64,000 nt of DNA from a bacterium. GTDB taxonomy: Bacteria > Oederibacteriota > CAKKQC01. The translations under genes were made by a program, and so were the position numbers. The notes below the pieces were generated by a model. The model saw only the letters and a program-made list of their open reading frames with translations. It searched no databases and was not told the origin of the DNA. This document shows positions 3,195 to 37,829 of this stretch, one piece after another. The stretch lies in the NCBI GenBank assembly GCA_919901855.1, contig CAKKQC010000027.1:62001-126000 (forward strand). The letters are read 5' to 3'. Position 1 is the first letter of the stretch. The number at the start of each line of letters is the position of its first letter.

Positions 3195-6100
3195 TTACTC
3201 CACCACGATCGTGCCACGCCGCTTCCATTTCCCCTGCTCGGCGACCCACAGGTAGAGCCCGGGCGCCACCAGCCGTCCCCCCTCGTTCCTGCCGTTCCAC
3301 TCGATCAGGAACCCCGACGACGGTCCGCCCTCCCAGACCCGGAGACCCCGGGTCGTGTAGATTCGGACCCTGGCGCCCGGAGGCGCGTTCGCGAACTTCA
3401 GGGTCCCGCGCACGGCCGACTTCGGATCGAACGGATCCGGATATACGAGGAACTGCGACTCCAGCACGACGGCCGCTTCCCCGACGGCCTCCGGGAGCGG
3501 CTGGAGGACCGCGCTGAAGCCGTCCGCGACCGCCCGGTTGACCACGGTCGCGCCCGGCCCGTACTTCTTCCCGGCCAGGATGACCTTCACCACGACCTGC
3601 CCGCCGGGCGCGAGGTCGCCGAGCGTCCACGTCAGCGCGGGAGTCACGCCCGACGGAGGAGGGACGGCCGAGACGTAGAACAGCGCCGGCGGCACGAGAT
3701 CCCGCATCGTCGTCGCGAAGGCCGTATCCGTGCCCGTGTTGCGCACCGTGATCTGGAACTCCACGGGGCCCTCGACCGGCGCGGACGGAGGCCCCACCTT
3801 CGTGACGGCCAGGCGGGGGCCCAGGAGGCCGACGACCACCTCGTTGCTGGGCACCGGGGTGATCTCGGGACCCGAACTCGTCCGGCCTCCGAGGAGGGCC
3901 CGGTTGGGCGGCACCTGGTCTCCCGTCATGCTCGCCGGCACGAGGGTGAACACGGTCGCACTGCCGGCGGTCCCGGGCGGAATCGCCGGCAGGGTCCAGA
4001 CTACGAGGCCGCCCGCGACGCCGCATCCGGTCCCTCCACTGCACCCCGTGTAGACGAGGCCGGCCGGCAGGGTGTCCCAGATCCGCGCGTTCCACAGGGT
4101 GTCCGTGCATGTATTCGCCCACGTCAGCCGGTAGGCCACCGGTGATCCGGCCGCGCCGACGGGCGGCGTCGCGGATTTCGACAGGATGACCGCGAGGCTG
4201 GCGACGCCGACACGCACACGCGCCACCCCGGCGCGGGGGAGAGCCACCAGGCAGTTGTCGGCGGCATCGAGCGACGCCCCGAACGCGAGTTCCGGCACCA
4301 TGCACGAGAATCCCGACTGGAGGGTCAGGAGGAACGACTCGGAGGCCCCGGGGCCCATGACGGACCGGCTCCAGGCCAGGATGGACCCCGTCACGACGCC
4401 TCCCCCGGACGCCGAGACGAACGAGGCCCCGGCGGGAAGGGTGTCCCAGACGCCGATGTTTCGCGCCGCGTCGGTGCCCGCATTCCGGACCTGCACGGTG
4501 AAGAGGACGGGGTCCCCCGCCGCGACCACGGCGGAGGCCGCCCAGACCGTCACCGACACCTGGGGAGACCCGACAATCACGGACAAGGGGGCGCTGACCA
4601 CGACTGGGCGCGCCGCGCCGATGCTGTTCGCGCAGAACCCGGAGGCCAGGTCGGGCCCTATGCCGGTGCCGGTCACCGAGACCGTGAAGGCGACCGAGGT
4701 GGATCGCCCCGGACCGAGGGGCGCCAGCGTGAAGACCACGAGCGGACCGGCCGGCCCGCAGGACAGGCCCCCCGTGCATCCGGCCCACGCCGTCCCCGCC
4801 GGCAGGGTATCCCAGACCACGATGGCCGTCGCGGTATCCCCCCCCGTGTTGCGCACGCCGATGGTGTAGTCCAGGAGCGTGCACCGGCCCGTCCTCGTAT
4901 GGCTGGCCCGGAGGTCGAGCGCGAGCACGGCCTGGACCGCCTGGACCGTGACGGGCGGGGACGCGACGGGGGTACACGACACCCCAAGGCTGTTCGCGTA
5001 CCGCCCGGAGGCCGTGTTCGTGAACGATCCGTCCGCCGTGAAGCGCAGGGCGCACGACACGGACGTCGTCGCCGCGGGCGCGAGGTCGCCGAGCGTCCAG
5101 AGCACGCGCGTCCCGTTGAACCCGCACGACGAGCCGCCGCCGCACGATACGTACGTGGTTCCGGCGGGCAGGGTGTCCAGGACCCCGAGGCTCATCGCAG
5201 TGTCGTCGCCCGTGTTCGCGACCCCGATCGTGTACGTCACGAGGGCGCCGACCGGAGCCACGGACACGTCGGCCTGCTTCACGAGCGCGAGGACGGGCGC
5301 CGTAAGGTGCAGGCTGACGGGCGGGCTCACCGTCGGCGTCTGGGGCACGAGGGCGCTGTTCCGGCATTCCAGCGCGGCCCGGTTGGGCCCGATGAGGGTC
5401 TGACTGCCGTCCGCGACCGCCGTGAACTGGACGGTGCCCACGCCGCCCGGCGGCAGGTCGGGGACCGACCAGGTCACGACGGTGCCCACGAGGAGGCCCC
5501 CGCCCGTGGCCGACCCGAACACGAGTCCCACCGGCACCGTGTCCCAGACCGTGACGTTCACCGCAGTGTCGATGGACGCGTTGCGGTAGTCGATCGTGTA
5601 CGTGACCGATCCGCCCGCCGGCAGGCTCCAGCCGCTCGGGGTGTTCGTGAGCAGGATTTCGAGGCGGCTGACGGTCGTCGTCACCGGCGGGCTCCGGTAT
5701 ACCGCCGGGTCGAAGAGCTGGGTCGCGGAGGCGGCGTTCGTGACGGTGGCGCCCTCCGCCAGCGTGCCGGAGATCCCGGCCCGGAACCGGAGGAAGCCCG
5801 AGGCTCCCGGCACGACCCGGTCCACGACCCATCGCAGGAAGAGCGGCGTCCCGGACCCGCCGGGCGGCTCCCCGGAGATCCAGGCGCCTCCGAGCGCCGT
5901 GGACCACGCCGCGGACACAAGCGACGGCGCGCCCGTCCCGTCGGGTTGGCCCCAGAAGGCCAGGCTCGGGGATACCACGGTCGTCCCGTCCGGCAGGGTG
6001 TCCGTGACGGTGAGCGCCGCGATCGTCGCGACCCCCGCGTTGCTCCAGGACACCGTGTAGGTCAGGAGGCCGCCGGCCGAGACCGTTCCTCCGGGCACCA

Positions 6101-27624: not shown

Positions 27625-27649
27625 TCGATCTCCTTGGGTGCTCGGGAAA

Positions 27650-27674
27650 ACAGGGGAGGCAGACACCGGCCCCT
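27650..27674 (-). terminator. Possible terminator hairpin in the riboswitch expression platform
   Basis: On the minus strand AGGGG (27670-27674) can pair with CCCCT (27652-27656), and GTTTT follows. It sits between the riboswitch aptamer and the btuB Shine-Dalgarno site, where a switchable terminator would be expected. The stem is short and the T-run weak. Confidence 0.3.
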
Positions 27675-27689
27675 TGTCCCTCGAGGAAC

Positions 27690-27850
27690 CCGTACGTGGC
27701 GGTCAACTTCGGGGTCGGTCTCCTGACTCCCGCTTCATCCTTCCCCGCGCCTTCCCAGGTTTCCCCAGTGGCATCCAGCGAGGTCGTCAGCGGTCACAGT
27801 GGCGGGGCCGTCGCCGATTCTTCACGGCGTTCCCTTCACCCACGAAGCAA
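27690..27850 (-). promoter_or_regulatory. Cobalamin riboswitch
   Basis: The minus-strand leader of btuB has the conserved cobalamin (adenosylcobalamin-type) aptamer elements in order: GAAGGGAAC, then CGGCCCCGCCACTGTGACC, a GATGCCACTGG helix, CTGGGAAGGCGCGGGGA, and the B12 box AGTCAGGAGACCGACC at 27713-27728. Ligand binding in this class represses downstream genes when B12 is sufficient. The transcript start predicted from the promoter at 27864-27893 lies just upstream of the aptamer. Boundaries are approximate. Confidence 0.93.
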
Positions 27851-27918: not shown

Positions 27919-28719
27919 TCAGCGGAGGACTTCGATGACTTCCGCGACCACCTTGACCTCGCCCTCCTCGACATCCTTCAGGACGATGGGCTTGAATTCC
28001 GGATTGGTGGGTTCGAGTCGAATCTCTGCGTGGCGCCACTCGCTCGTGCCGGTTGAAACCTTCGTGCTGGCGTATCTCTTGACCGTATAGGAGCCCCCGG
28101 TGTCCGGATCATGGATACCGTGATGCTGGACCAGGACGAGCGTGACCCCGACGGCCGCAGCCCACTCCCCGACGATCGTCGCGATGAACTCCGGCCCGTT
28201 GTCGCTCCGCAGGTGCGCCGGTACCCCGTACTGATGCCCGAGCCACTCGAGCAGCGCCACGACCTCCGCGGCCTTGAACGAGGGCGCCGCCACGAACGCC
28301 AGGCACTCCCGCGTGTATTCGTCCACCACAGCCAAGAGCCGGATCGACCGTCCGCCCAGCGTCCAGTCCTTCATGAAGTCCAGGCACCAGACCTGGTTCG
28401 GCCCCGTAGCCCGCAAACCCAACAGCTCCGGGATCGGCTTCTGCCGACGCCGTTTCCGCTTGCGGGGCTTCACTTGCAGCTTCAGTAGCTTCCAGATCCG
28501 GTGCACCGTGTTCTCCCCGATCCGCCCCACGAGGTCTCGGACCGCGTCCGTCGCCCGCCGGTATCCCTCGCGCGGAGCGTCCTGGGCCAGCACGGGCAGC
28601 AGCGCCTTCAGCTGCTCGTCCCGTGCCCGTCCGCGACTCACGTACCGCAGGGACGCCCGGCTCCACCCCAGCAGACGGCACGCCCCCCGCTGCGAGAGGT
28701 CCGGAATCGCCGCCAGCAC
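27919..28719 (-). pseudogene. IS3-family transposase OrfB, truncated and joined to the tail of another gene
   Basis: The first about 193 residues are an IS3-family OrfB: an HTH_21-like region, then the rve integrase core with the first Asp in VWCLDFMKDW (D114) and the second in RSDNGPEF (D173). The third catalytic residue, Glu about 35 residues later, is missing. Instead the frame continues into about 70 residues (DPDTGGSYTVKRYAS, then NPEFKPIVL and a VVAEVIEVL end) that do not belong to transposases. That tail looks like the end of an S24/LexA-like peptidase domain, with YTVKRY holding a possible catalytic Lys; this reading is uncertain. The junction lies near 28125-28145. The product cannot be an active transposase. 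Confidence 0.8.
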
Positions 28720-29096
28720 GTCCGCCAGCCGTGCCCGGCGTTCCGCCGGGCTCAGGCTTTTCCCCGTAAGGCCACGGAGAGGGCGCGGCGCGCCAGCTCC
28801 GATTCCGCCAGCAGTTCCTTGAGGTGCCCGTTCTCACGCTCCAGCTCCCGGAACCGCTTGGCCTCCGGCGTCGAGAGCCCGCCGTACTTGTGCCGCCACC
28901 GCACGAGCGTCGATTCGCTGATCCCGAGCACCCGGCACGCTTCCTCGACAGGCTTGCCCTGCGCCAGGAGCGCTTCCGCTTCGCGTACGATCCTGACCAT
29001 CTCCTCCATCGGCTGACGCTTCTTCATGTCGCCTCCTTGCCCCTCCGGGGCCGGCGACTGTCACTCTACCTGGACTCAAGAACCGGGGGCACTGCA
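28130..29096 (-). mobile_element. Truncated IS3-family insertion sequence
   Basis: The element starts at about 29096 on the minus strand with TGCAGTGCCCCCGGTTCTTG, a TG-starting end usual in the IS3 family, and this start falls inside hsdR. OrfA (28752-29027) and OrfB follow in the usual order. A GGGGAAAAGCC site at 28757-28765, just before the OrfA stop, would allow the -1 frameshift that makes OrfAB. The distal part of OrfB and the right terminal repeat are gone, so it cannot move on its own. Its insertion or a later deletion removed the 3' half of hsdR. Confidence 0.8.
28752..29027 (-). CDS. IS3-family transposase OrfA
   Basis: The 91-residue protein is the helix-turn-helix subunit of an IS3-family transposase. 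The HTH spans about residues 20-46 (AQGKPVEEACRVLGISESTLVRW), followed by a leucine-zipper-like coiled coil (FRELERENGHLKELLAE). It has a Shine-Dalgarno AAGGAGG seven bases ahead of the ATG. The slippery GGGGAAAAG run at its end would place ribosomes in the OrfB frame. It is intact, unlike OrfB. Confidence 0.9.
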   Translation of the reverse strand: MKKRQPMEEMVRIVREAEALLAQGKPVEEACRVLGISESTLVRWRHKYGGLSTPEAKRFRELERENGHLKELLAESELARRALSVALRGKA

Positions 29097-30923
29097 CGCC
29101 AGCTTCTCGCGCCGGGGCTTGTTCCGTATGTGCATCTGCCAGTCGGTCTCTGACGCCGATCCCGTCATGACGACCTTGATATGCCCCTTGGCGTCGTCAT
29201 CGTCATGCCAACCTGGCCTCAAAGCCGTGATGGCCCGGTACACGTCAACGCAAATCCGGCGGCTCATGCAGACGATCATCGCCTTCCCATCCATGGCTTC
29301 CTGCCGGGCATCGAAGTGAGCCAGGAGGTCATGGACCACGATCGCGGTTCGCTTGTCGGCCCCCACGACCGCCTCCAGCGCGGCCCACTTGGTCTTGAGC
29401 CGCTCCTTGCTCGGTGCTTCTTCCCCCTCCGTGATCTCCTCGAACTCCACGTCCAGCTTGGGTCGCTCAGCCTCATCCAGCTCGAGTTTCGCGAGCCGTC
29501 CTTCGTAGTAGATGGGCACCGTGGCCTTGTCGGCGACCGCCCGCTGGATGTCGTAGATGCTGATGTATTCGCCGAATACCGCCCTCGTGCTCCGGTCCGT
29601 GAGATCCAGCGGGGTCGCCGTGAACCCGATGAACGAGGCATTGGGCAGGGCGTCCCGCAGGTGCTTCGCCAGCCCGTCCATGAAGTCGTAGTGGCTCCGG
29701 TGCGCCTCGTCGGCGATCACGATGATGTTCCGGCGATCAGAGAGAAGCGGCATGGATTGTCCCTTCTTGTCCGGAAGGAACTTCTGTACGGTCGTGAAGA
29801 CGACGCCCCCAGCCGCCACTTTGAGCAGTTCGCCGAGGTCCGTGCGTTCGTCGGCCTGGACCGGCTTCTGGCGAAGGAGTTCCTGACACCGCGAGAACGT
29901 GCCATAGAGCTGGTCGTCGAGGTCGTTCCGATCGGTCAGGACAACGACAGTCGGATTCTCCATGGCTGGTTCGACGACGATCCGGCCGGCGTAGAACGCC
30001 ATCGTCAGGCTCTTCCCGGATCCCTGCGTGTGCCACACGACCCCGCAACGGCGGTCGCCCGAAGGACGCGATGCCTTGACGGTGGTGACAACCGCGTGCT
30101 CGACCGCATGGAACTGGTGGTAACCCGCGATCTTCTTGACCAGTGCCTTGCCATGATCCTCCTCGAACACGATGAAGTGACGCAGATACCGGAGGAAACG
30201 CCCGCGGTCGAACAGCCCTTTGACCAGCACTTCGAGTTCCGGCATCATCGCCGAGGCGGGCTCCTCGCCCCCGATGGTCCGCCACGGCAGGAACCACTCC
30301 CAGTCCGCGGTCAACGACCCAAACCTGGCCTCGTTTCCGTCCGACGCCACCAGGACTTCGTTGAACGTAAATAGTGGCGCGATCTCGTCCTTGTAGGTCT
30401 GGATCTGCTTGAACGCGGTCAGGACGGTAGCCTTCTCGTCCGCCGGGTTCTTGAGCTCGATGACCGCGATCGGCAGTCCGTTTAGGAACAGCACGATATC
30501 GGGACGCCGATGGTGCTGTCCCTCCATCACCGTGAACTGGTTCACCGCAACCCAATCGTTCTCATTGGGATCGCCGAAGTCCACGAGTCGCGCCTTGGCA
30601 TATGCGACCCGGCCGTCTTCCTGATACGAAACGTCCACGCCGTCGACGAGCATCCGGTGGAAGAGCCGGTTGCCCTGGGCCAGCGACGGCGCGCTCAGTC
30701 CGACGACTCTCCGGAAGGCATCCTCGATAGCTTCTTCCGGCAGCTTCGGGTTCAGGGTCTCCAGCGCCTCCCTCAACCGCCCGGCGAGGAGCACCTCCTG
30801 GTAGGTATCACGTTCAGCATCCCGCTCTCCCGGCGCGATCTCTGGTCCATGGAGAACCGTGTATTCGAGTTCGTCCAACCACCCGAGCGCCGCTTCTTCG
30901 ACCTCGGACTCAGTGAAGCTCAT
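29076..30923 (-). CDS. hsdR: Type I restriction enzyme R subunit, truncated by an IS3 element
   Basis: This 615-residue frame keeps the N-terminal nuclease domain (PD at 141-142 and ELK at 156-158, the PD-(D/E)XK site), Walker A HTQGSGKS (298-305), the DEAH box (405-408) and motif [10 protein letters not shown] (433-439). It stops soon after the conserved [12 protein letters not shown] segment, where the last six residues come from the IS end. Full HsdR proteins have about 1000 residues, so most of the second RecA-like domain and the C-terminal assembly region are missing. DNA translocation and restriction should be lost. It lies 34 bases after a small gene in the RM operon. Confidence 0.9.
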
Positions 30924-31401: not shown

Positions 31402-32169
31402 TCAATTGAGAAGAGGTTGTGCACTCGTCTCCCTTTGCGACCAGAGAATCGGATGAACTGAATATGCTCCGAGAGCCTCGAGAACATCGCCCCCCGCACT
31501 CCTCTCTCCATCGTTCAAAAAGGCAAAGGCCTCGACTCCCTTGCCTCGGCCCTCGCGGGTATCTTCCAGGGAAAAAAGGAAGGAGATGATCGAGTGCTTC
31601 GAAGGTGCATTGATGACCTGCACCAGGCGCTCCGGCCTGTTTCGAGAAGGCGGGATCAGAAAATCAACCGCATGGTCGTATCCGCTCTTGCCAGCCAACT
31701 TGACGCGTTCGTTGTATCGTACTTCCTTGAGATCAAGGTACTCACGCACATCCTCGTAGAACAGCGTTTCTACACGAGCTCGGGCCATGACGAACATGTC
31801 GCTGATGGCCAGCATTGCCTGAACGAGATTGTGGGTGCGTTGGCCGAGATTGCGCGGCGACGCCTCCACGACGAGGCGGCCACCGTCGTTCCTCACGCCG
31901 AAACCATTCAAGACCGACTGGAGAATGTCCTTCCGCTTGGGCGAGTTGAGGTCCAAGCCGCTGGCTCGTAGGTCCGCCATCGTGTAGCCGTCATCGGAAA
32001 GAATGACGTTTCCATTCTGCTTCTGCGCGTAGACCTGCACGTGGTCGTTGTGGCGATCAAGGAAGGGGGTCGTCAGCTCGCAGGAACCTCTGAGCTCCTG
32101 GGTCACAAGGCCCTTTCGAAGCCACGAAACGTAGGCTTCGATGAGGGTATCGCATTCCTGGCGGTTCAT
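31402..32169 (-). CDS. DUF1828/DUF1829 domain protein
   Basis: The 255-residue protein matches the DUF1828 plus DUF1829 architecture. The N-terminal part has ELTTPFLDRHNDHVQVYAQK and the LSDDGYTMADLRASG block (about residues 31-75); the C-terminal DUF1829 part lies at about 160-245 with SFLFSLEDTREGRGK. Such proteins are found near restriction and phage-defence genes, but no activity is established that I know of. Its ATG overlaps the DUF6978 stop (ATGA), so the two are co-translated. A two-gene toxin-antitoxin or defence pair is an inference. Confidence 0.8.
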   Translation of the reverse strand: MNRQECDTLIEAYVSWLRKGLVTQELRGSCELTTPFLDRHNDHVQVYAQKQNGNVILSDDGYTMADLRASGLDLNSPKRKDILQSVLNGFGVRNDGGRLVVEASPRNLGQRTHNLVQAMLAISDMFVMARARVETLFYEDVREYLDLKEVRYNERVKLAGKSGYDHAVDFLIPPSRNRPERLVQVINAPSKHSIISFLFSLEDTREGRGKGVEAFAFLNDGERSAGGDVLEALGAYSVHPILWSQRETSAQPLLN

Positions 32170-32597
32170 ATGAGACTCACCTGGATTTGAGGCACACCTT
32201 GAATATGGCAGAAGACACAGAAATCCTCCAGCGCTAACCCCATATCCTTCAGATCGTGAAACTCTGCCGGATCAGCAGCAACAGCCCACCGATCCTCGTA
32301 GCCCTCTCGATAGACGTGCATATGATCTGGACCAACCTGGCTCTCGTCCGGATTCGTGTGCGGGGCGCCCCCGAAATCCAGCCTCACGAGAATGATGGCC
32401 TTTCGTCCCCGCGTCTGATACCTCGCCTTGGAGAGGCGGATAGTGCCCCGCCAGATATCGAGGATGAACCTCTCCCGCCTGTCTTTGCTCTGGAGATCAT
32501 GGGATTCGTCCAAGCCCGGCTTGAGATAGATCGGCTGTGGATCCACAAAGTCCTTGTCAGCGGCGATGAGGGCGTCAGCTTCGGCCTGCGTCAACAT
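32166..32597 (-). CDS. DUF6978-like protein paired with the DUF1828/1829 gene
   Basis: This 143-residue protein begins MLTQAEADALIAADKDFVDP, resembling DUF6978-family proteins, and has a central beta-rich part (RLSKARYQTRGRKAIILVRLDF) followed by an H-T-N-P-D-E/H-M-H-V-Y-R-E-G-Y-E-DRWA segment with several conserved-looking His and acidic residues that might form a metal site. The overlap with the following DUF1828/1829 gene implies a fixed partnership. Function is unknown. About 250 bases without a clear gene lie upstream, perhaps holding its own promoter and one tiny reading frame. Confidence 0.65.
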   Translation of the reverse strand: MLTQAEADALIAADKDFVDPQPIYLKPGLDESHDLQSKDRRERFILDIWRGTIRLSKARYQTRGRKAIILVRLDFGGAPHTNPDESQVGPDHMHVYREGYEDRWAVAADPAEFHDLKDMGLALEDFCVFCHIQGVPQIQVSLI

Positions 32598-32606
32598 GGT
32601 TGGCTC

Positions 32607-32681
32607 TCAGCATAGACTCGTGCGGTCAGCAGCGGGCGCGTTTGCCGCGTCGATATTGAGCGCGAAGCCCATCTCAGCCAT
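32607..32681 (-). CDS. Possible 24-residue peptide upstream of the DUF6978 gene
   Basis: An ATG at 32681 preceded by GAGGAG eight bases upstream opens a 24-codon frame that stops 9 bases before the DUF6978 start. The peptide begins MAEMGFALNIDAANAP. The good ribosome site and position suggest a leader peptide or small protein, but so short a frame can be chance. Confidence 0.25.
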   Translation of the reverse strand: MAEMGFALNIDAANAPAADRTSLC

Positions 32682-32845
32682 GCTCGCTACTCCTCGCTTC
32701 CCGTGGGATCATCGGTTCGTCAGCCCCGGCCGACTACCGTTCATTCTAACGCGGCCCTACCTTCCGGCCGATGCTCGCCGCCTCTAGAATGCCAACCCGC
32801 TCACGTTTTCTGCTCGTGATTCTACAGCCTCTCGCGCCAGCCGGG

Positions 32846-33337
32846 TCATTTGGCGTATTCCGCCCAATGTGATTCGATGAATCCCCGCATGCCACCCTTG
32901 GGAGCGTACGCGGGATAGACTTTCCGGAATTCGTCCTCTGCGATCCCGAGGCTCGTCTTCGGCAGCACGTTCGTTTGTGAAACGAGATAGAGCAATCCTA
33001 GCGATGGAGCACGTGACTCACCTTGATTGCAGTGAATCAGCGCCCTGTCCCCAGACGCGATCGCTTCCTTCGTGAAGGCAAGCGCTTCGTCGACGATCTC
33101 CTTGGCGATGTAGGCTGGCTCTTCCACGTCCACGAGGTTGAGGAAGAGTCTCTTGTCCCGTCTTGCCCACAGGTACTCAGGATGGTCATTGGGGGCGCCA
33201 CGTCCTCGGTATCCGAGGAGTTCTCGGTGGTAAGGTTCCTTGCATGCGTGGACCGTCCACCATCCAGCCTGACCGATGACTGATTCCTCGAAGTCCGCTG
33301 CGGCTCCGACAAAGAGCCTCTGGCAGATCTCAACCAT
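32846..33337 (-). CDS. Dual-specificity/tyrosine-phosphatase-like protein
   Basis: The 163-residue protein carries the cysteine phosphatase signature IHCNQGESRAPS: catalytic Cys103 and Arg109 in a C-x5-R loop, with a likely general acid Asp70 in LNLVDVEEP. The fold size fits compact dual-specificity phosphatases. It would remove phosphate from proteins or from another phosphate ester such as a nucleotide or RNA end. It follows the GIY-YIG gene by 22 bases within the RM operon, which is unusual company and suggests a defence-linked signalling step. The partner and substrate are unknown. Confidence 0.85.
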   Translation of the reverse strand: MVEICQRLFVGAAADFEESVIGQAGWWTVHACKEPYHRELLGYRGRGAPNDHPEYLWARRDKRLFLNLVDVEEPAYIAKEIVDEALAFTKEAIASGDRALIHCNQGESRAPSLGLLYLVSQTNVLPKTSLGIAEDEFRKVYPAYAPKGGMRGFIESHWAEYAK

Positions 33338-33359
33338 TACTCGCCATTTTCATCTGCTC

Positions 33360-34217
33360 TCATCCGGCCACCTCGGCGTCCTGGATTTCCTTCAGCGTCC
33401 GGCCATCGGCGGCCTTCCATTCGACACGGCCGTTCGACGAACGTCCGAGGACGACCCCAGCGGCCGTAGAAGGAGACGAGAAGAGGTAGTTCTGCGAGAA
33501 GACGTACGCATCGCCCTCCGGCCTCAAGACGCCATTCTTGATCAGTGCCACACGCAACTCCACTATGTAGGCATGACATGAAGGGACCTCGGACTTGGCT
33601 GCGCGGCTCCCTGATCGCACCTCGAATCCCTGCGGCGTCTCCACACCATCGGCCTCGACTCCGCGCGCCCTGAGGTGCAGCGCCGGCCCAGCCCTTGTCT
33701 CCCCCATGGCCTCGGAAAAGACGCTGACCCCCAGCACAGGGAAACAGAGAAGCATCTCGGACAGAAAGCCCTCCGCGTCCGCCGCATCGGCTTCCGAAAG
33801 AGACGGGAGCTGAGGAGCGTTTCCGTTGTCCAGAACGCAGCGCTTCGCATCCGCCGCCAGCTTCACCAACCGGGCTTCGAGATACTGGACATGGGCTTTG
33901 TTCAGATTCTCGTCCTTGCTCGTGAAGGCAATGCAACTGATCCAGAAGTCCTTCTTCGCCGCATGCTGGTCGAGACGTGGCCGGATCGGATCTCCTTCGC
34001 CTACGTAAACCAGAGGAAGCCCCGACTCTTCCGAGGGGCCGGTCAGGACGTAGACGCCAGTGCGGTCAAACTCCTTGCGTTGTCTCGTCTCTCCGAACAG
34101 CGAACGCGGAACGACAAGCCCACTGCCATTCCAATTCGACTTCTCGATGGTCCGCAACCCATCCGGATTGCCCCCGGGCAGGAAGATCCTGATCGAATAC
34201 GGCTGACTACCAATCAT
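33360..34217 (-). CDS. GIY-YIG nuclease-family protein with C-terminal DUF4357
   Basis: From the ATG at 34217 (AGGAGG seven bases upstream) the protein has 285 residues. The GIY-YIG nuclease domain spans about 50-120: GVYVL (54-58), YVGEGD (71-76), conserved Arg in PIRPRL and metal-binding Glu114 in YLEARL. The C-terminal about 55 residues match DUF4357, a domain often found with type I RM proteins and GIY-YIG enzymes. It is likely a DNA endonuclease, perhaps aimed at foreign DNA. It lies directly after the MNT-HsdS gene with a 48-base gap, so it is part of the RM operon. Confidence 0.85.
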   Translation of the reverse strand: MIGSQPYSIRIFLPGGNPDGLRTIEKSNWNGSGLVVPRSLFGETRQRKEFDRTGVYVLTGPSEESGLPLVYVGEGDPIRPRLDQHAAKKDFWISCIAFTSKDENLNKAHVQYLEARLVKLAADAKRCVLDNGNAPQLPSLSEADAADAEGFLSEMLLCFPVLGVSVFSEAMGETRAGPALHLRARGVEADGVETPQGFEVRSGSRAAKSEVPSCHAYIVELRVALIKNGVLRPEGDAYVFSQNYLFSSPSTAAGVVLGRSSNGRVEWKAADGRTLKEIQDAEVAG

Positions 34218-34265
34218 GTGGTCGCCTCCTGGATGACCCATCCCATGCCAGCTTCTCCCACTAGG

Positions 34266-35855
34266 CTACTCCACTCTGAACCGGTGGGGGTCGATACTGA
34301 CCGGACCATCGACGCGGATTTCACCGGACAGAAGTCGAGGTAGGAGCGCGTCCCGCAGGGCGGCAAGGGTGCGACGTCCCGAGTCCCCCCGATCCACTCG
34401 CTCAGAGATTCCTGTTGCGTACTTGTCGAACTCCTCCAAGATCGGCGGTGGCGGAACAACTTGTTTGCTCATATACGCGAGCTTCCTGTTCAGGCCCGAC
34501 ACAGCAGAATCAGCGCCGAGCGACGCGAGATCGAGTATTTCGAGAGCGTGAAACAGGAATTGCATACTGCTACAAATCCCCGAAGGTACGACGAAGAAGG
34601 CCGTGTCAATGGCGAAGAAGTCCTTGGGAGCCCAAGTGACAGTGCCCGGATTCCCCTTTCGGCCGACCACAATCCCCGGACCACTGGCAAGCCGTTGGTT
34701 GTGCCATCCTATCTGGCCGTTCGAGCCATAGACCGGGACGTTGCCTTCCCGACGATCTCCCGCCTTCAGGGCTCTACCGTAGGCCAGTTCAAACACCTCT
34801 CCAAGCTCCTTCACCTCCCAGCCCGCAGGAATTAGTCCCAGTTCGGAGTCCTCGAAGGCACCGGGAAAGAGGTCAACGATCTCCGTGGGCAGGCAGGGAT
34901 CGCGGCCCTCGGACTTGGCGCGGACGGGGTCAAAGTCAACGAACCAGGACTTGAAGAGGGCGCGGGCCATGGACTCGAGAGTCTCGTTCATCCGCCGGTT
35001 GAGCTCGATTTTGTCGTCAAGGGCGCCTAGGACATGCGCGATGGCGCGTTGCTCGGGTTCGGGCGGTAGGAGCACACTTAGAGACTTCAGCTCATCGGTG
35101 TTCAGACGTCCCGTGCCGTGTCCCGCGGAGTCCACGAGGCCGAGCAGACGATCCTTGTTGCCCAAGAGGACATAGGGAAGGAAGTCGCTTCTAAGGTCGG
35201 GTTTGGGGCAGACGGCCTTCACGTCCTGGTTAAAAGCCATCGGGCGTTTGACGATACAGATGGGGACGTCATTGTGGAGCGTCATGCCTCTGACCAGGAG
35301 CATCACACTGCCGGCAGGCGTGAGTCTCGTGCCATTGGCCACGCCCAATTCCGTCACATGATCTTCCGTATCGTCGAGACGGAAGCGTTTCATGTCCTTC
35401 GCCGAAACCCAAGGAATCGATCCTCCCCAATACCGCGGATCGCCTTTGGCTGGCGTGCCACCGGAGAAGAAGTTAGCCACCGAGCCAAGGGATACCTCGC
35501 GCCACCCAACTGTCTTCCTTCGGTCATTCCCTTTACATACCTGAATCACCTCATACCCCTTCTCGATCACCTTCCTGAAGGAGTCAGAAATCCCGTGCCA
35601 GTCCAGGACGTCCACACGGATGGGAAGGTCGGAATCCGAAAAAGCCTCTTTGATCCGCGCGAGCAACTGCCAGTCGAGTTTCTCCTTGCCGACAATCGCC
35701 AGGTCGAGGTCGGAATGATCCTTGGCCGTCCATGTGGCGCGGGAACCGAAGGCCCGAACCTCGCGGTCGGGGACATGCTCATGGAGGATGTCGAGAACTA
35801 TCTTGAGATGATCGGGCCGGAGGTCAATCAACTGCTCGTTCCCGTATCTTCTCAA
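34266..35855 (-). CDS. hsdS: Fusion of MNT-type nucleotidyltransferase and type I RM specificity subunit HsdS
   Basis: A single 529-residue frame joins two proteins. Residues 1-105 are a minimal nucleotidyltransferase of the MntA/HI0073 type with the exact GS-x10-D-x-D motif (GS 37-38, D49, D51) and a third Asp near 82-85. Residues about 117-529 are a complete HsdS: TRD1 (WREVSLGSV, GGTPAKGDPRYWGG, IPWVSAKDM), a central helical spacer (LPPEPEQRAIAHVLGALDDKIELN), TRD2 (GWEVKELGEVFELAYGRALK) and a C-terminal spacer (LRDALLPRLLSGEI). No ATG, GTG or TTG lies between the domains, so no separate HsdS can start there. The start is a TTG (35855 or 35831) overlapping the HEPN gene. HsdS sets DNA specificity; the MNT half should modify the HEPN partner. 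Confidence 0.9.
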   Translation of the reverse strand: MRRYGNEQLIDLRPDHLKIVLDILHEHVPDREVRAFGSRATWTAKDHSDLDLAIVGKEKLDWQLLARIKEAFSDSDLPIRVDVLDWHGISDSFRKVIEKGYEVIQVCKGNDRRKTVGWREVSLGSVANFFSGGTPAKGDPRYWGGSIPWVSAKDMKRFRLDDTEDHVTELGVANGTRLTPAGSVMLLVRGMTLHNDVPICIVKRPMAFNQDVKAVCPKPDLRSDFLPYVLLGNKDRLLGLVDSAGHGTGRLNTDELKSLSVLLPPEPEQRAIAHVLGALDDKIELNRRMNETLESMARALFKSWFVDFDPVRAKSEGRDPCLPTEIVDLFPGAFEDSELGLIPAGWEVKELGEVFELAYGRALKAGDRREGNVPVYGSNGQIGWHNQRLASGPGIVVGRKGNPGTVTWAPKDFFAIDTAFFVVPSGICSSMQFLFHALEILDLASLGADSAVSGLNRKLAYMSKQVVPPPPILEEFDKYATGISERVDRGDSGRRTLAALRDALLPRLLSGEIRVDGPVSIDPHRFRVE

Positions 35856-36240
35856 GCAGATACTTCACGTCCGGCAGGAACCGCCGCGCCACCGCCAGCA
35901 CTTCCTCCGCGACCACCTCGTCGTAGGTATGCGATGTGATGTTGCGTTTCTTCAGGTACTCGAGCCACGGCTCGGCATCCCGGACCATGCCCTGCTCGAA
36001 GCCGAGACGGAAGAGATCCTTGCTCGCGATATCATCGGAGTCTTCCAGACCGTACATCTCCAAATAGCGCCTGAGGAACTTGCGGGCCAGCTCGAACGTG
36101 TACTCGAATCGCTGGATGACCGCGTCGCGGAGGAACTTCCTCTCCTTGGCCTCCACCCCCAACGCCGAGGCGTCGTACGCCAGGAGCACTTCCTCGAACG
36201 AACGCGCCGCCTTTTCGAAGCTGGTCAGGTCCAATGCCAC
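35824..36240 (-). CDS. HEPN-domain protein, HepT/HI0074 type (putative RNase toxin)
   Basis: The 138-residue helical protein belongs to the HI0074-type nucleotidyltransferase substrate-binding/HEPN family. It has the RX4HXY motif as R99-NITS-H104-T-Y106, the toxin signature of HepT proteins: Arg/His form the RNase site and the Tyr is the residue AMPylated by MntA-type antitoxins in studied systems. FEYTFELARKFLRRYL is the usual second helix. The GTG start has AGGAGG about ten bases upstream. Its stop overlaps the MNT-HsdS start, so toxin and antitoxin-HsdS fusion are translated together. Here HEPN activity is inferred from motif and context. Confidence 0.9.
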   Translation of the reverse strand: MALDLTSFEKAARSFEEVLLAYDASALGVEAKERKFLRDAVIQRFEYTFELARKFLRRYLEMYGLEDSDDIASKDLFRLGFEQGMVRDAEPWLEYLKKRNITSHTYDEVVAEEVLAVARRFLPDVKYLLEKIRERAVD

Positions 36241-36263: not shown

Positions 36264-37829
36264 TCATATCTCGTAGCCAAGCCCCTTCAGGTTCTGCTTG
36301 ATCGTCTTGTCCAGCCGCTCGCCTTCCGCCATCTGATCCTTGAGCGCCCCGGTCAGCCGCTTCATCTTCTCATCGAACGGCTCGCCGTCGTCGCGGGCCT
36401 CTTCGGCGCCCACATACCGGCCGGGAGTCAGGACGTGACCGTGGGCGCGGATCTCGGTCAGCGTCACCGACTTGCAGAATCCGGCCACGTCCGCGTACTT
36501 GCACTTGCCGTCCTTGTCGCCACGCCAGGCGTGATACGTCCCTGCGATCCTGGCAACATCCACGTCTGTCAGGTCGCGGTGGACGCGGTCCGCCATGGTC
36601 CCGAGCTTACGGGCGTCGATGAACAGGACTTCCCCGGCGCGGTCGCGGAACCGCCGATCCTTCTTCTCCCGCGCGAGGAACCACAGAGAGACGGGGATCT
36701 GGGTGGAGTAGAAGAGCTGACCCGGCATGGCCACCATGCAGTCCACGAGGTCCGCCTCGACGAGGTTCTTGCGGATCTCGCCCTCGTTGCTAGCCGTGCT
36801 GGACATACTGCCGTTGGCCAGTACGAACCCGGCCAAGCCGGTGGGACCCAGGTGGTGGATGAAGTGCTGGACCCAGGCGAAGTTGGCGCTCCCGGCGGGG
36901 GGGACGCCGAACTTCCACCGCTTGTCCTCGCGAAGCCGCTCTCCGCCCCAGTCGCTGGAGTTGAACGGAGGATTGGCGAGGACGTAGTTGGCGCGAAGGT
37001 CCGGGTGCAGGTCGCGGTGGAAGCTGTCGGCGGGCTCGGGTCCGAGATTCGCGTCGATTCCGCGGATGGCCAGGTTCATCTTGGCGAGCTTCCACGTCGT
37101 CGGGTTCGACTCCTGCCCATAGACGCTGATGTCGCCGACTTTGCCGCCGTGCTCCTGGATGAACCGCTCGCTCTGGACGAACATCCCGCCCGAGCCGCAA
37201 CACGGATCGTAGACCCGGCCCGAATACGGGGCCAGCATTTCCACGAGCACGCGGACGACGCACCGAGGGGTGTAGAACTGGCCGCCCTTCTTGCCCTCGG
37301 CGCTCGCGAACTCGGAGAGGAAGTACTCATAGACACGGCCGAGAACGTCCGTGGACCGGCTGGCCCGATCCCCGAGCGTAATCGTGCCGATGAGGTCCAT
37401 GAGCTCGCCGAGACGCTGTTTGTCGAGCGAAGGGCGGCCGTAGTCGCGGGGAAGCACGCCCTTGAGCGTATCCTTGTTCGCGCGCTCGATCGCGGCCATG
37501 GCGTCGTCGATCAGTCTGCCGATCGAGGGCTGTTTGGCGTTCGCGAGAAGGTGCGGCCAGCGGGCTTCCTTGGGCACCCAGAAGACGTTAGCCATCCGGT
37601 ACTCGTCCGGCTCTTCCGAATCGGCGCCCTTCTTCTTGTCGACGACCAACTGCTGGCGGCGCTCCTCGAAGGCATCGGAGACGTACTTGAGGAAGATGAG
37701 CCCGAGCACGACGTGCTTGTACTCAGCCGCGTCCATGTTGTTCCGGAGCTTGTCCGCCGCCAACCACAGCTTGGCCTCGAAGCCAAGATTGGCCCCGGTC
37801 CTCTGCGCGGATGCGGCCTTCTTCGCCAT
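36264..37829 (-). CDS. hsdM: Type I restriction-modification system DNA methyltransferase subunit
   Basis: The 521-residue protein is a complete HsdM, the N6-adenine methyltransferase that with HsdS methylates the host recognition site. An N-terminal helical domain (about 15-175) includes [16 protein letters not shown]; the catalytic domain has motif [10 protein letters not shown] (208-216) and motif IV NPPF (286-289), preceded by GGQFYTPR. It is the first gene of the RM operon, 48 bases after the GH42-like gene. A TAGACT box 6 bases before the ATG may drive it. HEPN follows after 23 bases. Confidence 0.97.

Follow-up and report, generated by a model that had tools for sequence, protein, structure and literature searches.

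A predicted HEPN/MNT toxin–antitoxin pair with its antitoxin enzyme fused to HsdS recurs in type I restriction-modification operons

The window analysed here, a stretch of DNA of 64,000 nucleotides to which all coordinates refer, carries a type I restriction-modification (RM) operon in which a predicted nucleotidyltransferase of the MNT type is joined covalently to the specificity subunit HsdS, next to a HEPN gene. As judged from the genomes compared, this arrangement is real and recurrent across bacterial phyla and one archaeon, and its function is predicted. The reading that we prefer, with a probability of about 0.58, is that the operon contains a type VII-like HEPN/MNT toxin-antitoxin pair whose antitoxin is carried on HsdS, so that loss of HsdS would free the toxin. 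RM systems frequently lie next to toxin-antitoxin systems. That a predicted antitoxin enzyme is repeatedly joined to HsdS in one polypeptide is direct evidence, at the level of genomes, of a functional link between them, and it would tie cell survival to a working restriction subunit.

All genes of the operon lie on the minus strand, in the order hsdM (36264-37829), HEPN (35824-36240), MNT-hsdS (34266-35831), a DUF4357 gene, other genes and hsdR (29076-30923). The hsdM gene encodes an intact type I N6-adenine methyltransferase subunit of 521 residues (PF02384 8e-106, PF12161 8e-27). As the initial annotation had described, the HEPN gene and the fusion directly follow it, with a gap of 23 nt; HEPN and MNT-hsdS overlap by 8 nt, and 24 nt separate MNT-hsdS from the next gene. 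The 138-residue HEPN protein, a putative RNase toxin, belongs to the HI0074/NTase_sub_bind family (PF08780 9e-35, PF01934 2e-8, TIGR01987 5e-27). It bears the exact RX4HXY motif claimed for it, RNITSHTY (R99, H104 and Y106; 35923-35946), in which Y106 is the expected AMPylation site. Both HsdM and HsdS are complete. The HsdS moiety (34266-35507) has two target-recognition domains and two long helices (PF01420 7e-26, in two stretches; 1yf2 at 4e-30 by sequence and, with Foldseek, at 6e-27 by fold).

The proposal that a nucleotidyltransferase and a complete HsdS share one reading frame was borne out. The frame is open without a stop over 529 codons (34266-35855), and Pfam places a Polbeta/NTP_transf_2 domain at its residues 18-100 (PF01909, 4e-8), followed by two Methylase_S stretches. 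The GSx10DxD catalytic motif is matched exactly by GSRATWTAKDHSDLD (35703-35747). The start of the gene is likely TTG 35831, residue 9 of the earlier frame, and 35855 likely too early, because several relatives have an ATG at the position of this TTG with the same 8-nt overlap with the HEPN stop. From this start the protein has 521 residues, of which the first 100 (35532-35831) form an HI0073-like MNT domain (PF18765/PF01909; 1no5, 1e-25), a putative antitoxin adenylyltransferase. Being part of the HsdS polypeptide, this putative antitoxin does sit on the DNA-recognition subunit. Across the junction the protein reads YEVIQ (the final strand of MNT), VCKGNDRRKTV and GWREVSLG, the last being where homology to HsdS begins; the short linker (35508-35531) comprises about 10 residues. 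The initial annotation had seen no start codon between the two parts, which is correct for in-frame ATG and TTG but not for GTG: an in-frame GTG at 35549 (35547-35549) lies within the final strand of MNT and might in principle initiate an HsdS-only product.

Two out-of-frame ATGs lie near the junction, at 35538 and 35527, and the second opens a frame other than that of HsdS. None of 98 related genomes carries a near-identical copy of the gene, so that the exact bases at this junction come from a single assembly. These points would suit an assembly or frameshift artefact that joined two normal genes in this window. Such an artefact is nevertheless highly improbable, and we rejected it in view of 42 other loci that carry the same one-frame fusion with similar linkers, among them isolate genomes and one complete plasmid; the fused chain is, moreover, modelled confidently by AlphaFold. 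The fused relatives, by encoding the two parts in one frame, exclude a frameshift as the general cause. Among the 98 related genomes compared, only the genome of the window carries the fused gene; its absence from the others suggests horizontal acquisition.

The AlphaFold model of MNT-HsdS, built on a 35-sequence alignment, has a mean pLDDT of 91.4 and a pTM of 0.73. It places the MNT domain at residues 1-100, ahead of a two-TRD HsdS, and residues 102-106 of the linker are of low confidence (pLDDT below 50). The fusion is accordingly modelled as two well-folded parts and a flexible linker. For the MNT part, Foldseek retrieved HI0073 (1no5) at a TM of 0.94 and 1.2 A, MntA complexes and, at a TM of 0.87, the MNT antitoxin of Legionella (8xeo). 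In the model, the final MNT strand leads into HsdS at the place where MntA has its HepT-docking helix.

Related loci were collected by a scan of 84,980 genomes, which favours contiguous matches and from which the best 80 loci were kept. Combining the best scan loci with those from whole-genome searches and from plasmids, and removing duplicates, we found 43 distinct loci with the order hsdM-HEPN-[MNT-HsdS], the window included, that is, at least 42 others. From record titles and tree labels they belong to Chloroflexota, Poribacteria, Rhodothermota, Gemmatimonadota, Acidobacteriota, Actinomycetota, Nitrospirota, Pseudomonadota and Thermodesulfobacteriota, with one archaeon, Cenarchaeum. The initial annotation had proposed a search for N-terminal MNT domains on HsdS beside a HEPN gene; in these loci HEPN lies immediately upstream in 43/43, GSx10DxD is present in 43/43 and RX4HXY in 39/43. 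Pattern count and listed sequences show that the third acidic residue is mostly Asp, and Glu in four. The median linker in the fused relatives is 12 residues. It is free of an in-frame ATG in 31 of the 43 genes; the 12 that have one are L034, L009, L021, L053, L062, L073, L076, L080, L119, L158, L182 and L188. Through such an ATG or GTG, HsdS without MNT may be made from some fused genes, as far as their sequences indicate. In one locus (L044:576-1797), three consecutive HEPN-like genes stand between hsdM and MNT-HsdS. The MNT domain had no match in 50,697 phage records, and matches in IMG/VR were HsdS-like only, without the MNT part.

How common the fused form is was estimated from 398 genomes drawn evenly from the phylum to which L034 (Methylolobus) belongs. 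Eight of the 77 MNT-gene loci in this sample were MNT-HsdS fusions; PF08780 pairs are hence mostly stand-alone, fusions making up the smaller share in this phylum. In the same sample, six of the nine MNT loci with hsdM directly upstream were fused, and the three that were not had an hsdM fragment only (two) or a divergent M (one). At L186 and L187, HEPN and a stand-alone MNT lie next to what is left of hsdM, a short piece, which looks as though the two genes had outlasted the RM system.

The class I definition of HEPN/MNT (type VII) pairs couples a PF01934 or PF08780 HEPN carrying RX4HXY with a neighbouring NTP_transf_2 protein carrying GSx10DxD, and explicitly takes in PF08780/PF01909 pairs (PMC7641770); the pair of the window has all these features. 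The description of the nucleotidyltransferase as MntA-like stands as regards the class I motif and the PF01909 match, but not at the level of the equivalog: against the NCBIfam pair NF047751/NF047752, the HEPN protein scores 19.3 and the MNT domain 33.7 bits, with a cut-off of 60 bits for each, and we did not file them as HepT and MntA equivalogs for this reason. The HEPN protein does exceed the TIGR01987 (HI0074) cut-off (94.5 versus 55.8 bits). By sequence, the pair is of the HI0073/HI0074 subfamily within the published class I definition. The PDB sequence matches of the HEPN protein are HI0074 and a Legionella HEPN toxin (8xdj, 2e-13). In the latter, the Mg-binding residues Q44 and E47 are essential for RNase activity, R98 and H103 are dispensable, and Y105 is AMPylated (PMC11586414). 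Alignment and conservation make Q43 and E46 (36103-36114) the counterparts of Q44 and E47, and Y106 that of Y105. In the 43 fused loci, E46 is retained in 39, Y106 in 40 and Q43 in 30; since another residue occupies the Q43 position in 11, a metal site of the Legionella type is not universal.

Four fused loci (L019, L075, L068 and L069) combine a damaged RX4HXY with an intact MNT. The HEPN proteins of L068 and L069, which are related, come from two phyla and lie upstream of MNT-HsdS at about position 6001, have lost the R, H and Y of the motif. These apparently RNase-dead proteins suggest that in some lineages HEPN may serve a second purpose other than as a toxin, and they are the best evidence, for such lineages, of another explanation, in which HEPN and MNT form a two-part nucleotidyltransferase: HEPN would bind the substrate, and the enzyme would tune restriction or modification by modifying a subunit of the RM system or some other target, instead of acting as a toxin-antitoxin system. 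The first description of HI0073/HI0074 was of a nucleotidyltransferase made of two proteins (title of 1no5), and where HEPN domains are fused to MNT they have often lost RNase activity (PMC3710099). Retention of RX4HXY in 39/43 and of Y106 in 40/43 speaks against this explanation, as does the nearest PF08780 HEPN to have been characterised, a toxin AMPylated by its MNT (PMC11586414). We regard it as quite unlikely.

The damaged motifs also bear on how the genes are lost. Eighty RM loci collected by HsdS similarity, partly chosen for MNT, contained HEPN with MNT in 34 cases, an MNT call only in two (one of them a weak, distant match) and HEPN alone in none. The lack of HEPN-only loci, together with damaged HEPN motifs beside intact MNT, is the pattern expected if HEPN without MNT is harmful. 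This asymmetry fits a toxic HEPN and falls short of proof, the loci being partly MNT-selected.

We then considered how the fusion arose. In a tree of MNT domains (138 rows), the fused label requires 18 changes, at least 10 of them on well-supported (starred) branches; with 97 columns this count is rough, and gains and losses of the fusion are indistinguishable. These changes do not support a single ancient fusion. One fused locus, L179, sits in a clade of another MNT type whose other members are stand-alone. Acetobacter plasmids have an unfused arrangement, hsdM-HEPN-MNT-hsdS-hsdR, with genes that overlap or abut, and the fused form is found on the complete Zymomonas plasmid pZMOB01. The published hsdSp deletion in Zymomonas ZM4 (PMC8432527) was not counted as a natural test of the fusion.

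These observations can also be accommodated if HEPN and MNT are a working toxin-antitoxin pair and the fusion has no regulatory meaning: overlapping MNT and hsdS genes with coupled translation fuse by single indels, and the result would be tolerated because the HsdS N-terminus is free. The 8-nt overlap between MNT and hsdS in Acetobacter, the out-of-frame ATGs at the junction in the window, the in-frame ATG left in 12/43 fused genes and the frequent changes of the fused label on the tree would all suit such a passive origin. On the other hand, most sampled MNT loci directly after hsdM were fused (6/9), the unfused ones having only an hsdM fragment or a divergent M, and fusion has recurred at one end of one subunit, through linkers that are short and with catalytic motifs preserved, which is more than drift needs. 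A fusion devoid of regulatory meaning seems to us unlikely, and its recurrence across loci argues for functional coupling of MNT and HsdS.

The toxin-antitoxin reading with the antitoxin on HsdS would work as follows. By analogy with studied class I pairs, we infer that HEPN is a toxic RNase and that MNT-HsdS would transfer AMP from ATP to its Tyr106, which would keep the RNase off. Neutralisation would need ongoing HsdS synthesis; were the operon lost, or HsdS itself lost or degraded, newly made HEPN would stay unmodified, cut RNA and stop growth. The outcome would be selection to keep hsdS, a form of addiction, and the module could serve as a second line of defence. The exact class I motifs in both genes, the constant HEPN partner, the PDB relatives, the lack of HEPN-only loci, the linkers free of in-frame ATG in 31/43 and the recurrence of the fusion were counted in support of this reading; the NCBIfam scores, the four damaged HEPN motifs, the missing MntA C-terminal helix and the ATGs or GTG at linkers were counted against it. 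A further point against it is that an antitoxin held by a covalent tether may be more stable than antitoxins usually are. We further infer that HsdS amount, assembly or DNA binding might gate the antitoxin, as the initial annotation had proposed for the making, folding and binding of HsdS and for phage inhibition of the RM complex. In the more specific form of this idea, MNT would read the state of HsdM2S, AMPylating HEPN while HsdS is assembled or bound to DNA and ceasing to do so on encountering a phage inhibitor or unmodified DNA. This form is unlikely; if true, the specificity subunit would itself be a sensor, with restriction and an RNA-based arrest of the cell as its two outputs.

In the window, hsdR breaks off near residue 610 out of roughly 1030 (PADLOC REase_I alignment 4-615 of 1029), so that the C-terminal 40% of HsdR is gone. 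The reading frame ends at an IS3-type element (27919-29027, minus strand; PF00665 and HTH_21 in orfB) that takes the place of the hsdR 3' end, and whose own orfB continues into unrelated sequence; no other piece of the missing part was found in the genome. The operon therefore lacks a complete HsdR, which is present in most fused relatives having enough flank. From its sequence the type I system of the window is degraded, and given the truncated HsdR, restriction has probably been lost here, with methylation and the HEPN/MNT module remaining. Retention of the module after loss of hsdR fits addiction, as a single case that could also be recent decay. The truncated HsdR speaks against a simple back-up to restriction here.

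Genes between hsdS and hsdR (31402-34241, minus strand) match PADLOC phage-defence candidates: PDC-S14 with DUF4357 (33360-34241), PDC-M24A with DUF6978 (32166-32597) and PDC-M24B with DUF1828/1829 (31402-32169). A DSPc-like phosphatase gene (32846-33337) lies among them on the same strand. Further along, at about 27640-27850 (minus strand), a TonB-dependent receptor-like gene has a leader that resembles, by eye, a cobalamin riboswitch.

The predicted system could explain both the resistance of type I systems to loss and the response of cells to a phage block, and it is testable, as it combines a single polypeptide, known active sites and a defined target tyrosine. In text searches of open-access papers we found no description of an MNT-HsdS fusion. 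Fused proteins are nevertheless present in current resources under the name of HsdS: the PADLOC profile Specificity_I (PDLC03138) already spans the MNT domain, with residues 1-124 of the window protein aligned on profile positions 1-121 of 485, and the NCBI 'restriction endonuclease subunit S' WP_014466389.1 of Zymomonas is a fused MNT-HsdS protein. Both label these proteins as HsdS only, leaving the MNT part and the HEPN partner unnamed; the HsdS annotation thus conceals an enzyme domain.

Among known systems, the initial annotation had noted that MNT enzymes AMPylate the tyrosine of RX4HXY in studied pairs, and the family does include such pairs (PMC7641770, PMC11586414). HepT/MntA of Shewanella oneidensis (PMC7641770) likewise consists of an adjacent HEPN with RX4HXY and MNT with GSx10DxD. 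Here, in contrast, the HEPN is of the HI0074 subfamily, its gene comes first, and the MNT, which is fused to HsdS, resembles HI0073 and is missing the C-terminal helix with whose help MntA docks HepT. This helix is also absent from the MNT of the Legionella pneumophila HEPN-MNT pair (8xdj/8xeh/8xeo), which still AMPylates its HEPN (PMC11586414). The Legionella pair resembles ours in its HEPN sequence, in the equivalents of Q44/E47 and Y105 and in its MNT fold, but its MNT stands alone, whereas that of the window is joined to HsdS. For both domains, HI0073/HI0074 of Haemophilus influenzae (1no5/1jog) rank with the nearest relatives of solved structure; they are separate small proteins without an HsdS fusion, described as a two-protein nucleotidyltransferase. 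HEPN toxins coupled to or guarded by RM systems have been predicted in general, with PrrC/PrrI as the worked example (PMC3506569, PMC3710099), and the HEPN domains associated with RM fuse to nucleases and ATPases, not to methylases (PMC3710099). In PrrC/PrrI (type Ic), as here, the HEPN RNase is encoded inside a type I RM operon; it is held in check by the RM complex and freed upon phage inhibition (PMC3710099). PrrC, however, is an anticodon nuclease that combines HEPN with an ABC ATPase and is silenced by the RM complex, whereas the HEPN of the window is a stand-alone protein, probably silenced covalently by an enzyme domain carried on HsdS.
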